From: Erythrobacter sp. SD-21
Lineage (GTDB): Bacteria; Pseudomonadota; Alphaproteobacteria; Sphingomonadales; Sphingomonadaceae
NCBI RefSeq assembly: GCF_000181515.1
Contig: NZ_ABCG01000002.1
Coordinates: 124,001-188,000, forward strand
DNA length: 64,000 nt
Direction: 5' to 3'
Position numbers and translations under genes: made by a program. A model generated the notes under the pieces. The model saw only the letters and a list, made by a program, of their open reading frames with translations. It searched no databases and was not told the DNA's origin. How positions within the stretch are numbered: the stretch's first letter is position 1; every line of letters starts with the position of its first letter. Below, in pieces: positions 5,967 through 9,563 of this stretch.

Positions 5967-6985
5967 GGCAGAATGTGCCCCGCCCGGTCGCGCTTGGTGG
6001 CGAGATAGCGGGCGTTGTGCGGATTGTCGGGCAGCGAATGGGACACGCGTTCGGAGACGTGCACGCCCTCGGCAACGAGCGCCTCGACCTTGGCGGGGTT
6101 ATTGGTCATCAGGCGGATATCCTTCACTACCAAAAGGTCGAGCATGCGCGCGGCGGTAGGAAAATCGCGCGCCTCGTCGGGCAGGCCGAGCCGCGTGTTC
6201 GCATCGACCGTGTCAAAGCCCTGGTCCTGCAATCGATAGGCGCGCAGCTTGTTCACGAGGCCGATGCCGCGCCCTTCCTGCCGCATGTAGAGCAGGACGC
6301 CCCAGCCGCCCCTGCCTGCTTCTTCCGCCATCGCGCGCAGCGCCGCGTCAAGCTGCGGGCCGCAATCGCATTTGAGGCTGCCGAGGATGTCGCCGGTGAG
6401 GCATTCGGAATGCAGCCGCACCAGCGGGGCGAGTTCGGCGCGCTGCTCGCCGATCACCAGTGCAACATGTTCGCGCGTGTCGTCGGGGCTGCGGAAGGCG
6501 ACGATGCGCGCGTCCTCCGCGGCGGCGACAGGCAGCTTAGCGCGCGTGGCGATGCGCAGGCGCTGCGGGTCGGTGAAGGCGTCCACGTCGCTCGCGGCAA
6601 GGTGCGCGGCCTCGCCTGCCCCCTGCGGATCGACGAGAAAGGCGGGCAGGATGCCGGCAATCCGCGCCAGTTCGAGCGCGGCGCGCGCTTGTGCCTCCCA
6701 TTCGAGCGCCAGCGCCTTGAAGGGACCCTTGAGCGGGCTTTGCAGATCGAGCGCGGGATCGGCCACCGCCAGCGCGGCAGGCAGGTCGAAGGCGTCCGCC
6801 CCGCGCATCAGCACGGGTGTGCGCGGCACGGCGGCTTCGCGCTGGTTGGCGAGTTTCAGCGTGGCGGCGCGGGTGGCCGAGAGCAGCATCGCCTCGCCCG
6901 ATACATCGGAGAAAGCGGTCTCGACCGGCTGCAACAAAGGCGCGCCCTCGATCGCCAGCGGCCAGCCGTGACGCAGCGCGTCCAC
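5963..6985 (-). CDS. ribA: GTP cyclohydrolase II
   Basis: 340 aa. It opens GTP to 2,5-diamino-6-ribosylamino-4(3H)-pyrimidinone 5'-phosphate, the first step of riboflavin synthesis. The C-terminal 200 residues carry the zinc site (HSECLTGDILGSLKCDCG, three Cys) and the catalytic RQEGRGIGL segment. The N-terminal 150 residues are an extra domain seen in long alphaproteobacterial RibA proteins and do not look like an active DHBP synthase. The start used is GTG 6985; the frame is open upstream to near the xthA stop but offers only CTG there, so the N-terminus is uncertain. Confidence 0.9.
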   Translation of the reverse strand: MDALRHGWPLAIEGAPLLQPVETAFSDVSGEAMLLSATRAATLKLANQREAAVPRTPVLMRGADAFDLPAALAVADPALDLQSPLKGPFKALALEWEAQARAALELARIAGILPAFLVDPQGAGEAAHLAASDVDAFTDPQRLRIATRAKLPVAAAEDARIVAFRSPDDTREHVALVIGEQRAELAPLVRLHSECLTGDILGSLKCDCGPQLDAALRAMAEEAGRGGWGVLLYMRQEGRGIGLVNKLRAYRLQDQGFDTVDANTRLGLPDEARDFPTAARMLDLLVVKDIRLMTNNPAKVEALVAEGVHVSERVSHSLPDNPHNARYLATKRDRAGHILP

Positions 6986-7026
6986 CGCAAGCGCCGCCCG
7001 GCGGGATGGAGAGGGCGCGGGCTCGC

Positions 7027-7818
7027 TCAGATGTCGAACTCCGTCACCAGCGGCACGTGGTCAGAGGGCTTTTCCCAGTCGCGGGCGTATTCATGGACCG
7101 AGTGCCCGCTCGCCTGCTTCGCCAGTTCGGGGCTCGCCCACATGTGGTCGAGACGGCGTCCGCGATCGTTCGCTTTCCAGTCCTTCGCGCGGTAGCTCCA
7201 CCAGCTGTAATAGCGTTCGGGCGCCTTGATGTGCTCGCGCCCGATATCGGCCCAGCCATGCGCGTCCATGAAGCGCTGCAGGCTCTCGACCTCGATCGGC
7301 GTGTGGCTGACGACCTTCAGCAATTGCTTGTGGTTCCATACGTCGCTTTCAAGCGGCGCAATATTGAAATCGCCCACGATCAGCGTCGGGCGGTCGACCG
7401 CATCGGCCCAACGAGTCATACGTTCGAGGAAGTCGAGCTTCTGCCCGAATTTCACGTTGATCTCGCGGTCGGGCTCGTCGCCGCCGGCAGGAACATAGAC
7501 GTTCTCGACGATCATGCCGTCATGTTCCGGCAATTCTACCCCCACATGGCGTGCCTCGCCATTGTCCTGCCAGTCGTGGCGCGAAAACTCGCGGATCGGC
7601 ACGCGGCTGACCGTGGCGACGCCGTGATAGCCCTTCTGGCCATGCACCGCGATATGCTCGTATCCGAGCGCCTTGAACGCCTCGTAGGGGAACTGGTGCT
7701 CCTGGCACTTTATCTCCTGCAGGCAGAGCACGTCAGGCGCGGTCTCCTTCAGAAAGCGCTCGACGATGGGCATGCGGAGGCGGACGGAATTGATATTCCA
7801 GGTAGCGACAGAAACCAT
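7027..7818 (-). CDS. xthA: Exodeoxyribonuclease III / AP endonuclease
   Basis: 263 aa of the endonuclease/exonuclease/phosphatase superfamily. Visible motifs are TWNINSVR at the N-terminus, LCLQEIKCQ (metal-binding Glu), VGDFNIAP and the C-terminal WSY...RLDHMW...SDHVP with the catalytic Asp-His. It nicks DNA 5' to abasic sites in base-excision repair. The start was chosen at ATG 7818 because MVSVATWN is the conserved N-terminus; there is no clear Shine-Dalgarno. A perfect intrinsic terminator lies only 50 bp upstream, so expression needs read-through or a promoter inside the GC-rich leader. Confidence 0.95.
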   Translation of the reverse strand: MVSVATWNINSVRLRMPIVERFLKETAPDVLCLQEIKCQEHQFPYEAFKALGYEHIAVHGQKGYHGVATVSRVPIREFSRHDWQDNGEARHVGVELPEHDGMIVENVYVPAGGDEPDREINVKFGQKLDFLERMTRWADAVDRPTLIVGDFNIAPLESDVWNHKQLLKVVSHTPIEVESLQRFMDAHGWADIGREHIKAPERYYSWWSYRAKDWKANDRGRRLDHMWASPELAKQASGHSVHEYARDWEKPSDHVPLVTEFDI

Positions 7819-7867
7819 GGCGCGGGAGATAGGGCGCGCGGGCGCGGGGGTCCACCCGCAACCCACA

Positions 7868-7993
7868 ACAAAAAACCCTCGAGCCGGGGGCATTGGCTCG
7901 AGGGTTCCTTGTGAGCGTTCGTCACGCTTGGACGAAGGGGCTTGTCGGGCGGGACAATCAACAGGGGGGAAATTGCCGCCCACCGCTTCGATG
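7868..7993 (-). ncRNA. Candidate trans-acting small RNA between lolA and xthA
   Basis: A promoter-like pair (8000-8028) and an intrinsic terminator (7869-7906) bracket about 126 nt with no good ORF. Three hairpins can be drawn. Hairpin 1 (7947-7981) pairs GGGCGG-CAAT with ATTG-CCGCCC and shows a loop with six consecutive C on the RNA strand. Hairpin 2 (7914-7928) has a 5-bp stem. Hairpin 3 is the 12-bp terminator. C-rich loops that can bind ribosome-binding sites are common in alphaproteobacterial sRNAs. It could instead be the attenuated leader of xthA. The call is inference from structure. Confidence 0.5.
7869..7906 (-). terminator. Intrinsic terminator
   Basis: Perfect 12-bp stem AACCCTCGAGCC (7874-7885) / GGCTCGAGGGTT (7895-7906), 9-nt loop, followed in the minus direction by a run of T. 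It ends the lolA 3' UTR or the candidate small RNA. Confidence 0.9.
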
Positions 7994-7999
7994 CCTCTA

Positions 8000-8028
8000 T
8001 TTTTACGCCCATTTAAATTGCTGCTCAA
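8000..8028 (-). promoter_or_regulatory. Sigma70-type promoter of the candidate small RNA
   Basis: On the minus strand TTGAGC (8028-8023) and TAAAAA (8005-8000) are separated by exactly 17 bp in an AT-rich patch that contrasts with its surroundings. Transcription would begin near 7993. Confidence 0.5.
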
Positions 8029-8082
8029 TGAACATTCGGCCTCGGCGAATCGCAATCGCGAAACGCTTCGTCGCCGAGCCGT

Positions 8083-8745
8083 TTATCCCGGACGACGAGA
8101 TGAACGGCGCGGGTCACGGAAGGTGAACGCGCTGTCGGCCACCGACACGCCGTAACGGTTGTTCGAAAGGCGCACGGTGGTGCGGTGATTCTGCGAATCG
8201 AGCGCCACCCAATGGGTCAGCCTGAGACCGCCCGGCGCCGAGGCGTCGCGGGCGAAAATCAGCGTGATCACGCCGAATTCCGGACGCTTGGGATCGCGCA
8301 CCTCGATGCTGACCACATCGCTGTGGCTGGTCGGCACGAGGCGACCGTATTTCTTGACGTCGCGGCTGGGGTCGACAAGCGCGCCGAGCGGCGAGTTCTT
8401 GATCGGCCAGCGCTGGACCTGGTTCACCTCGTAGTCGATCATATACATCGACTTACCGTTCGAGACGACGAGGAGCGGCACGCCCTTTTCGTATTCGAAA
8501 CGGATCTTGCCGGGGCGCTTCAACGTCATGACGCCCGAGACGGCTTGGCCGTTGCGGTCGGTCTGGACAAAATTGGCGCGCATGGTCGAAATACCGCGCA
8601 GGGCCTCGACCGCCTGGTCGAGATCGCCGGTGGCCGCTTCGACGGGGGCGGGGGCTGCGTAGAAAGACGCAGGGACGCCCACGGCCAGCGCAAGAGCGAG
8701 GGCCGAGGCAACGGGTCGATTCTTGAAGAGAGACAAGGTGTTCAT
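8083..8745 (-). CDS. lolA: Outer-membrane lipoprotein carrier protein LolA-like
   Basis: 220 aa, start at ATG 8745 (MNTLSLFKN). A signal peptide spans about residues 1-38. The mature part has the LolA beta-barrel pattern: LRGISTMRANFVQTDRNG, GKIRFEYEKG, VVSNGKSMYMIDYEVNQ. It ferries lipoproteins through the periplasm from LolCDE to the outer-membrane receptor. It lies 100 bp after rpmG on the same strand. A GAAC-N7-GAAC motif, the alphaproteobacterial LexA-box form, sits 27 bp upstream of the start. Confidence 0.88.
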   Translation of the reverse strand: MNTLSLFKNRPVASALALALAVGVPASFYAAPAPVEAATGDLDQAVEALRGISTMRANFVQTDRNGQAVSGVMTLKRPGKIRFEYEKGVPLLVVSNGKSMYMIDYEVNQVQRWPIKNSPLGALVDPSRDVKKYGRLVPTSHSDVVSIEVRDPKRPEFGVITLIFARDASAPGGLRLTHWVALDSQNHRTTVRLSNNRYGVSVADSAFTFRDPRRSSRRPG

Positions 8746-8771
8746 GCTCCGTGGTGTACAGTCGGAGCATT

Positions 8772-8786
8772 GAACTGTCACTGAAC
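8772..8786. promoter_or_regulatory. Candidate alphaproteobacterial LexA (SOS) box
   Basis: GAAC TGTCACT GAAC matches the direct-repeat form GAAC-N7-GAAC (GTTC-N7-GTTC on the minus strand) used by LexA in alphaproteobacteria. It lies just upstream of lolA. One or two such matches are expected by chance in 64 kb, but few would fall in a short intergenic region. Confidence 0.35.
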
Positions 8787-8815
8787 TAAAGGCGTTCCCG
8801 CCGTTCAGCTTGGTT

Positions 8816-8837
8816 GGCGCCGGAACGAGCCGGCGCC
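8816..8837 (-). other. Stem-loop after rpmG
   Basis: GGCGCCGG (8816-8823) and CCGGCGCC (8830-8837) pair perfectly with a 6-nt loop 9 bp beyond the rpmG stop. There is no U-tract, so it may be a processing or stability element rather than an intrinsic terminator. Confidence 0.5.
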
Positions 8838-8845
8838 CGGCCAGA

Positions 8846-9013
8846 TCACTTGATCTTGGCTTCCTTGAATTCGACGTGCTTGCGCGCCACCGGGTCGTAC
8901 TTCTTGAAGACGAACTTTTCCGTGTGGTTACGCGGATTCTTCTTCGTCACGTAGTAAAAGCCCGTGTCGGCGGTCGAGACGAGCTTGATCTTGACGGTTG
9001 CGGGCTTCGCCAT
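8846..9013 (-). CDS. rpmG: 50S ribosomal protein L33
   Basis: 55 aa. The translation starts [19 protein letters not shown] and ends [18 protein letters not shown], the standard alphaproteobacterial L33. An AGGAAC ribosome site precedes ATG 9013. It lacks the zinc-binding Cys pairs of the C+ paralogue, as usual for this group. A TTGACT -35-like element lies at 9133-9138 upstream; its -10 is poor. Confidence 0.97.
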
Positions 9014-9158
9014 GGCGTGTTCCTAAAGATCTTTCTGATGGGCCGGACCCGGTAGCGGGCGTGACCGAAATAATAAGGGCGGCGCGAGCTGCACCGCCGT
9101 GTGGCGCGCCCATTGGGTGATTCACGGGGAAAAGTCAAGCGCGAGGAGCGCCGCAAAG

Positions 9159-9563
9159 CTACCAATCGACCTTGCCCCGGGTCGCCTTAACCTCGCCGCG
9201 CGCTTTCTTGGCCTTCAGGCGCTTCACCTTGCCCACGCGATTGACCCGGCTTTTCTTGCGTTTCTTCGGCGGTCTCAGCGCCTCGCCCAGCAGCGCAACC
9301 AGCCGTTCGCGCGCCGCTTCGCGATTCTGTTCCTGCGTGCGGTACTCGTTGGCGGTGAGCACGATCTCGCCCGCCTTGGTGAACTTGCTGCCCGCGATGT
9401 CCTTCAGCCGTTCAAAGGCATCGGGAGGCATTCCGAGCTGGAACACGTCGACGCGCAACTGCACGGCGGTGGCGACCTTGTTGACGTTCTGCCCGCCCGG
9501 GCCGGAGGAGGCGATGAATTTCTCCTCGGCAATCTCCAGCGCCCGGTCGGCTATCCTACCCAA
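9159..9563 (-). CDS. arfB: Alternative ribosome-rescue factor ArfB (peptidyl-tRNA hydrolase)
   Basis: 134 aa. The GGQ motif (Gly23-Gly24-Gln25, in SSGPGGQNVNK) is intact and the C-terminal 35 residues are highly basic (RPPKKRKKSRVNRVGK...), which in ArfB/YaeJ inserts into the mRNA channel of stalled ribosomes. It is too short to be a full release factor. It begins 6 bp after the pseudouridine synthase gene, so the two are likely one transcript with pabBC. Confidence 0.92.
   Translation of the reverse strand: MGRIADRALEIAEEKFIASSGPGGQNVNKVATAVQLRVDVFQLGMPPDAFERLKDIAGSKFTKAGEIVLTANEYRTQEQNREAARERLVALLGEALRPPKKRKKSRVNRVGKVKRLKAKKARGEVKATRGKVDW

Follow-up and report, generated by a model that had tools for sequence, protein, structure and literature searches.

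Introduction

6C RNAs are defined by two hairpin loops that carry runs of C. In mycobacterial B11, an RNA of this actinobacterial design, the C-rich terminator loop acts as the seed, according to PMC12395582, and within the literature surveyed B11 is the nearest tested design to the C-loop mechanism proposed below. Alphaproteobacterial sRNAs include ChvR of Caulobacter, placed under an envelope-related two-component system in PMC6237742, and suhB (RF00519), known in Sphingopyxis granuli (PMC6563040). Two envelope regulators are relevant here: the Caulobacter ChvI motif reads TTGC-N3-GCAA (PMC9731502), and the Rhodobacter CenR site reads TGA-N8-TGA, most of the CenR regulon being envelope genes (PMC9275681). 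Few sphingomonad sRNAs turn up in open-access PMC text.

Here we analyze a window of 64,000 nucleotides from Erythrobacter sp. SD-21, in which a sequence-only reading had placed a stand-alone sRNA between lolA and xthA. We regard it as fairly probable, judging from sequence comparison, that positions 7993-7870 of the minus strand encode an sRNA of ~124 nt, which has its own promoter, pairs through its C-rich loops with G-rich ribosome-binding sites, and shares a regulator with lolA. Like 6C RNAs and B11, the latter as described in PMC12395582, the element carries C runs in hairpin loops, one of them the terminator loop; unlike them, it has no Rfam match, belongs to another phylum, differs in neighbors and loop letters, and holds an invariant hairpin 2 between the C loops. 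With ChvR it has in common the alphaproteobacterial host and envelope two-component control, which is shown for ChvR and presumed here; the likeness is drawn by description rather than by sequence, and the ChvI motif is complete in only 3/152 aligned upstream regions of the element. suhB, likewise a conserved alphaproteobacterial sRNA, lies at another genomic place, and its model does not match here.

Results and Discussion

Layout of the lolA-xthA region

The features of the region are as follows (positions within the window):

7870..7993, minus strand: predicted small RNA of ~124 nt with three hairpins (fold, conservation, and covariation; transcript ends predicted)
8000..8005, minus strand: −10 hexamer TAAAAA (sequence; TA in 148/152 aligned regions)
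8023..8028, minus strand: −35-like hexamer TTGAGC (sequence; kept only among near relatives, 8/152)
8017..8033, minus strand: tandem motif GTTCAT (8033-8028) and GCAAT (8021-8017) straddling the −35, likely regulator site (logo of TTCA-anchored regions)
8050..8054, minus strand: half-site-like TGCGA, 21 nt before GTTCAT (TGCGAC near −21 moderately conserved in the logo)
7933..7990, minus strand: hairpin 1, outer stem CGAAG/CUUCG, inner stem CAAU/AUUG (fold and covariation)
7959..7972, minus strand: loop 1, UUUCCCCCCUGUUG, predicted seed (near-fixed letters TTTCCCCCCTGTT)
7914..7928, minus strand: hairpin 2, AGCGUGACGAACGCU (near-fixed letters GCGTGACGAACGC)
7870..7906, minus strand: intrinsic terminator with 12-bp stem, loop AAUGCCCCC (7894-7886), and T-run (sequence and covariation)
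8083..8745, minus strand: lolA, stop codon 8085-8083, directly upstream of the predicted RNA (ORF and neighborhood in relatives; name from the sequence-only reading)
8757..8786, minus strand: lolA promoter region, GTTCAGTGACAGTTCA (8786-8771) and TA (8758-8757) (sequence)
7027..7818, minus strand: xthA, downstream neighbor, predicted start 7818 (ORF; start position kept in relatives; name from the sequence-only reading)

The elements described before, TTGAGC-17 bp-TAAAAA followed by three hairpins, the first with six consecutive C in its loop and the last a perfect 12-bp terminator with a T-run, are borne out by sequence and fold. On the minus strand, TTGAGC and TAAAAA are separated by 17 nt. 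CGAAG (7990-7986) pairs with CUUCG (7937-7933) in the outer stem of hairpin 1, while 7906-7895 pair with 7885-7874 in the terminator, which is followed by a T-run of six T (7875-7870) and lies ~50 nt before xthA. The C runs show the 6C-style arrangement, with six C in loop 1 (7969-7964) and a second run of five in the terminator loop. The promoter as originally proposed stands in part: the TA of the −10 recurs in 148/152 aligned regions, whereas TTGAGC is found at its place in just 8/152. A strict sigma-70 scan of 6500-9500 found zero promoters. The automated terminator scan did not call the sRNA terminator, because it permits loops of 3-8 and the loop here comprises 9.

Conserved fold of the predicted RNA

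RNAfold assigns the predicted RNA −58.6 kcal/mol, compared to a mean of −36.96 (sd 3.51) for 200 shuffles, of which none is equally stable (z = −6.17). In a covariation alignment of 67 rows, 39 of which were fetched by blastn and the remainder by pattern, paired cells amount to 86.1% versus 76.5% in shuffles. Both sides have changed in 25 of the 33 stem pairs, and on five covariation measures not one of 500 shuffles comes up to the real alignment. Shifting the stem partner by one to three columns makes this signal collapse. Compensatory changes in related genomes, the test preset by the sequence-only reading, are therefore present, and as judged from the alignment the RNA structure is under selection.

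In the terminator, nine of the 12 pairs have changed on both sides and 99.9% of the cells are paired, while in hairpin 1 pairing extends to 78.8% of the cells in the outer and 67.4% in the inner stem. RNAalifold, left unaided, gives hairpin 2 and the terminator only (16 pairs), and hairpin 1 was placed by hand from the sequences. Further, we asked without an alignment whether the two arms of one sequence pair better than arms dealt among the sequences. This test yielded z-values, inflated by relatedness, of −17.6 for the inner stem, −31.7 for the outer stem (172 sequences), and −33.0 for the terminator (171 sequences). With one sequence kept per distinct left arm, the inner stem reached z = −5.2 (22 sequences) and the outer stem z = −21.4 (121 sequences). 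The inner stem reads CAAU/AUUG in the window's clade and GGGU/ACCC or GGG/CCC in relatives. The U-G wobble cells of the terminator would turn into mismatches if read on the opposite strand and so support the minus strand as the RNA strand. The core of hairpin 2 is invariant in the alignment and thus outside the reach of the covariation test.

Near-fixed loop letters

Unpaired letters that stay conserved while the stems around them covary usually point to a seed for pairing or to a protein-binding site. Among distinct blastn-fetched loci, 66 of 72 carry the loop 1 letters TTTCCCCCCTGTT in exact form, as do 32 of 34 model-fetched loci; if one C fewer is permitted (CCCCCTGTT), the counts rise to 71/72 and 34/34. 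The hairpin 2 letters GCGTGACGAACGC are exact in 70/72 and 33/34 of these loci, and hairpin 2 barely varies in stem and loop alike. All of these counts use only loci not fetched by pattern, the model-fetched ones being the best-scoring, and locus L030 was entered as a miss on account of its off-centre position. Of 174 unique transcripts, 153 have loop 1 exposed with a mean unpaired probability above 0.8.

By analogy to actinobacterial 6C/B11, the sRNA is predicted to pair through its C-rich loops. Alternatively, the C loops or hairpin 2 might recruit or titrate an RNA-binding protein with no mRNA pairing involved. This would fit the near-invariance of hairpin 2 in stem and loop as well as the lack of enrichment of complementary sites at start codons (see below). 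Yet we know of no RNA-binding protein of such a role here. Moreover, with its two separate runs of unpaired C the element agrees with the seed design reported for B11/6C (PMC12395582), and we consider the protein-binding alternative unlikely.

Searches for mRNA targets

Complementarity to loop 1 was scanned in 727 start regions, derived from home-made gene calls in 800 kb of the element's own genome and in the window. Whichever of the six thresholds is applied, fewer complementary sites are found for the native loop than for its shuffled versions; at −12 kcal/mol, 142 sites compare to a mean of 238 (sd 51). The scan lends no backing to targets, and a few specific targets are still compatible with it. 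The target pattern ACAGGGGG-N3-9-ATG occurs in 59/59 genomes and in most rows outnumbers its reversed control, a comparison in which Shine-Dalgarno bias is uncontrolled, and a bias of ribosome-binding sites explains the excess equally well. In the own genome, the pattern occurs once versus twice for the control. Among 30 target-pattern loci inspected, no gene was recognized twice by eye. ACAGGGGGG is found four times in the own genome, once as the complement of the sRNA itself.

Within the window, the most promising target candidate was the gene of an SPFH/Band 7 protein (PF01145; 3144-4052, plus strand), which carries before its ATG the leader sequence GCAGGGGGAUC, complementary to loop 1. 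It was rejected as a target, as the match is not kept in five homologues with readable starts.

Distribution and relation to known RNAs

By blastn, the element is found in 60/60 genomes of the genus, 80/149 of the family, and 40/147 of the order. A covariance model built from 67 sequences matched 150/197 order genomes: 149 belong to the window's family, and the remaining match, a weak one, is in another family. Among 20 misses listed out of 47, all lie outside the window's family. In 385 genomes of the class, the model gave five clear matches, all in the window's family, and 12 further matches below 32 bits were rejected as relatives, being mostly plain terminators. A pattern scan of named genomes matched at least 119 stretches. 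Among the 80 matches listed, 78 bear names that we take to belong to Sphingomonadales (Erythrobacter, Novosphingobium, Sphingomonas, Qipengyuania, and others), and two are labeled only Alphaproteobacteria bacterium.

The loop word TTCCCCCCTGTT is present in 66/385 class genomes. Its sites outside the family were rejected as relatives, as none of 30 loci inspected has a comparable enclosing hairpin and terminator. At one place in another alphaproteobacterial family (L320, G416:C3:11100-12000), a lone hairpin with the loop CUUCCCCCCUGUUC is followed by a terminator. This arrangement (L216, L320) is without counterpart in six other places from three genomes of that family and was rejected as a relative; the L320 hairpin is probably due to chance or convergence.

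At gathering score, Rfam gives no match at the element, and the sole match in the window is a tRNA. Up to an E-value of 10, five matches fall on the element, all far below their cut-offs and none of them 6C. The suhB model (RF00519) does not match the element and scores above its cut-off elsewhere in the own genome (L251, G000:C17:80914-80992), where a second, weaker suhB match below the cut-off is also found (L252, G000:C19:247363-247441). In open-access PMC text, the element was not found described, and the main text of two Zymomonas sRNA papers mentions neither lolA nor xth nor C runs. Taken over the genomes sampled, the element appears to represent a new family within a known kind of RNA, present throughout the Sphingomonadaceae examined and usually single-copy. 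With loops near-fixed family-wide and no entry in Rfam 15, such an RNA would amount to a core regulator missed by annotation pipelines.

Neighboring genes and alternative origins

In 194/197 loci, lolA is found on the same strand no more than 400 nt upstream. The terminator scan found no minus-strand terminator-like sites between lolA and the predicted RNA, so the lolA mRNA probably ends at the sRNA terminator, and part of the RNA may therefore derive from the lolA 3′ end. Taken further, the element might be mainly the lolA 3′ untranslated region with its terminator, and any short RNA would arise by processing of the lolA mRNA. The tight linkage and the shared end would agree with such an origin, but a terminator needs neither fixed loop letters nor a fixed second hairpin, and it would leave unexplained why a promoter-like motif is conserved in the space from lolA to the hairpins. 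We therefore consider it improbable.

xthA was found downstream in 161/197 loci; in many of the remaining 36, the stretch extends only a little way on that side. The sequence-only reading had offered as its alternative an attenuated xthA leader, in which the terminator governs read-through into xthA. Its position ~50 nt before xthA in the window and the downstream location of xthA in most loci speak for this possibility. Against it, xthA is not found in 36/197 stretches (many short on that side), the distance between lolA and xthA varies from 243 to 616 nt among relatives, the terminator stem pairs in 99.9% of the cells, and the structure from RNAfold, a general fold rather than a dedicated search, shows no competing anti-terminator. 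Given the variable spacing and the steady presence of lolA upstream, an xthA leader is unlikely.

In the window, the xthA frame runs uninterrupted through the entire element (342-aa ORF), as it would if the region encoded an N-terminal xthA extension or a small protein. However, the frame is open in only 4/46 loci with adjacent xthA, and the lengths spread evenly over the three frames (14, 15, 17), which largely refutes the extension and makes a coding function extremely unlikely. The stand-alone sRNA proposed by the sequence-only reading is thus supported, as far as sequence tells, by covariation, the lolA link, and the promoter.

A promoter layout in common with lolA

Two features were added to those recognized before, the near-invariant hairpin 2 and, unexpectedly, a promoter layout that the element shares with lolA. 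The upstream regions of the sRNA were aligned on GTTCA, whose own recurrence is therefore not independent there. Counted from this anchor, GMMA is found at +12 and TA at +28 in 148/152 regions each, and TGCGAC near −21 is conserved less strongly. The half-sites of the sRNA promoter lie ~10 to 11 bp apart and straddle the −35. Upstream of lolA, TTCA-N7-TTCA occurs in 153/167 unique loci and a control word in none. TA again stands at +28 there, with T in 73% and A in 96% of 144 loci. In the window, this near-invariant tandem falls within the lolA promoter at 8757-8786 (minus strand), a likely regulator site of interest in its own right.

Across 39 family genomes, GTTCAY-N6-GMMAGS-N10-12-TA has 57 sites and its reversed counterpart 12. 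The sRNA's own promoter accounts for at least 15 of the 57: 11 were recognized as such and four more by their position beside blastn or model matches. Of 30 motif loci returned, 29 were parsed, leaving 18 sites other than the sRNA, and ten of these 18 sit 13-58 nt before a signal-peptide ORF as called by a simple rule (baselines: 333/4894 random positions and 96/727 called genes). The raw total of 11/29 includes a spurious ORF at one sRNA locus. In the own genome, a looser promoter pattern shows no excess (five sites versus four for the control), and four of the five sites precede proteins that look secreted by eye. By these comparisons, the sRNA and lolA have a common promoter layout, which often marks envelope genes in related genomes.

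Candidate regulators

The sRNA and lolA are likely under one regulator, as their promoters suggest. It would be a response regulator of the OmpR/PhoB type, binding half-sites that straddle the −35 at a distance of ~11 bp from each other. CenR is a lead rather than a finding: the lolA promoter reads TCA-N8-TCA, the reverse complement of the CenR site TGA-N8-TGA, yet CenR-activated sites are oriented and placed differently. The Rhodobacter sphaeroides CenR regulon (PMC9275681) resembles the present case in having a tandem direct repeat before envelope genes. There, CenR-activated sites have the opposite orientation to the lolA repeat and lie upstream of the −35; here, the repeat overlaps the −35, and its second half-site is altered in the sRNA promoter, which reads TCA-N8-MMA. 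lolA is absent from the main text of that paper. ChvI was rejected as the regulator, with GCAA alone found in 74/152 regions and the full TTGC-N3-GCAA at this place in just 3/152.

Proposed function

In the reading that we favor, 7993-7870 would be transcribed from its own promoter as an sRNA of ~124 nt that acts in trans. The C-rich loops 1 and 3 would serve as seeds pairing with G-rich ribosome-binding sites of mRNAs, and hairpin 2 may provide a second recognition or protein-binding module. Together with lolA and under a shared envelope regulator, the sRNA would help to control cell-envelope genes, and the common promoter layout would tie post-transcriptional control to lipoprotein transport. 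A bolder version is rather doubtful: a Sphingomonadaceae-wide envelope-stress RNA which has its regulator in common with lolA and combines two C-loop seeds with the invariant hairpin, shutting off the production of outer-membrane proteins or lipoproteins whenever lipoprotein traffic comes under strain. If true, it would be the Sphingomonadaceae counterpart of the enterobacterial sigma-E sRNAs.

The promoter motif also offers a direct handle on an envelope regulon. As a separate observation, it precedes small, secreted-looking proteins at L257 in the own genome (G000:C19:645067; NYSLEEDRENILFLDL) and at L293 (G065:C1:598156; DYNLQEDRENILLLDL), and these two proteins, from two genera, look related.
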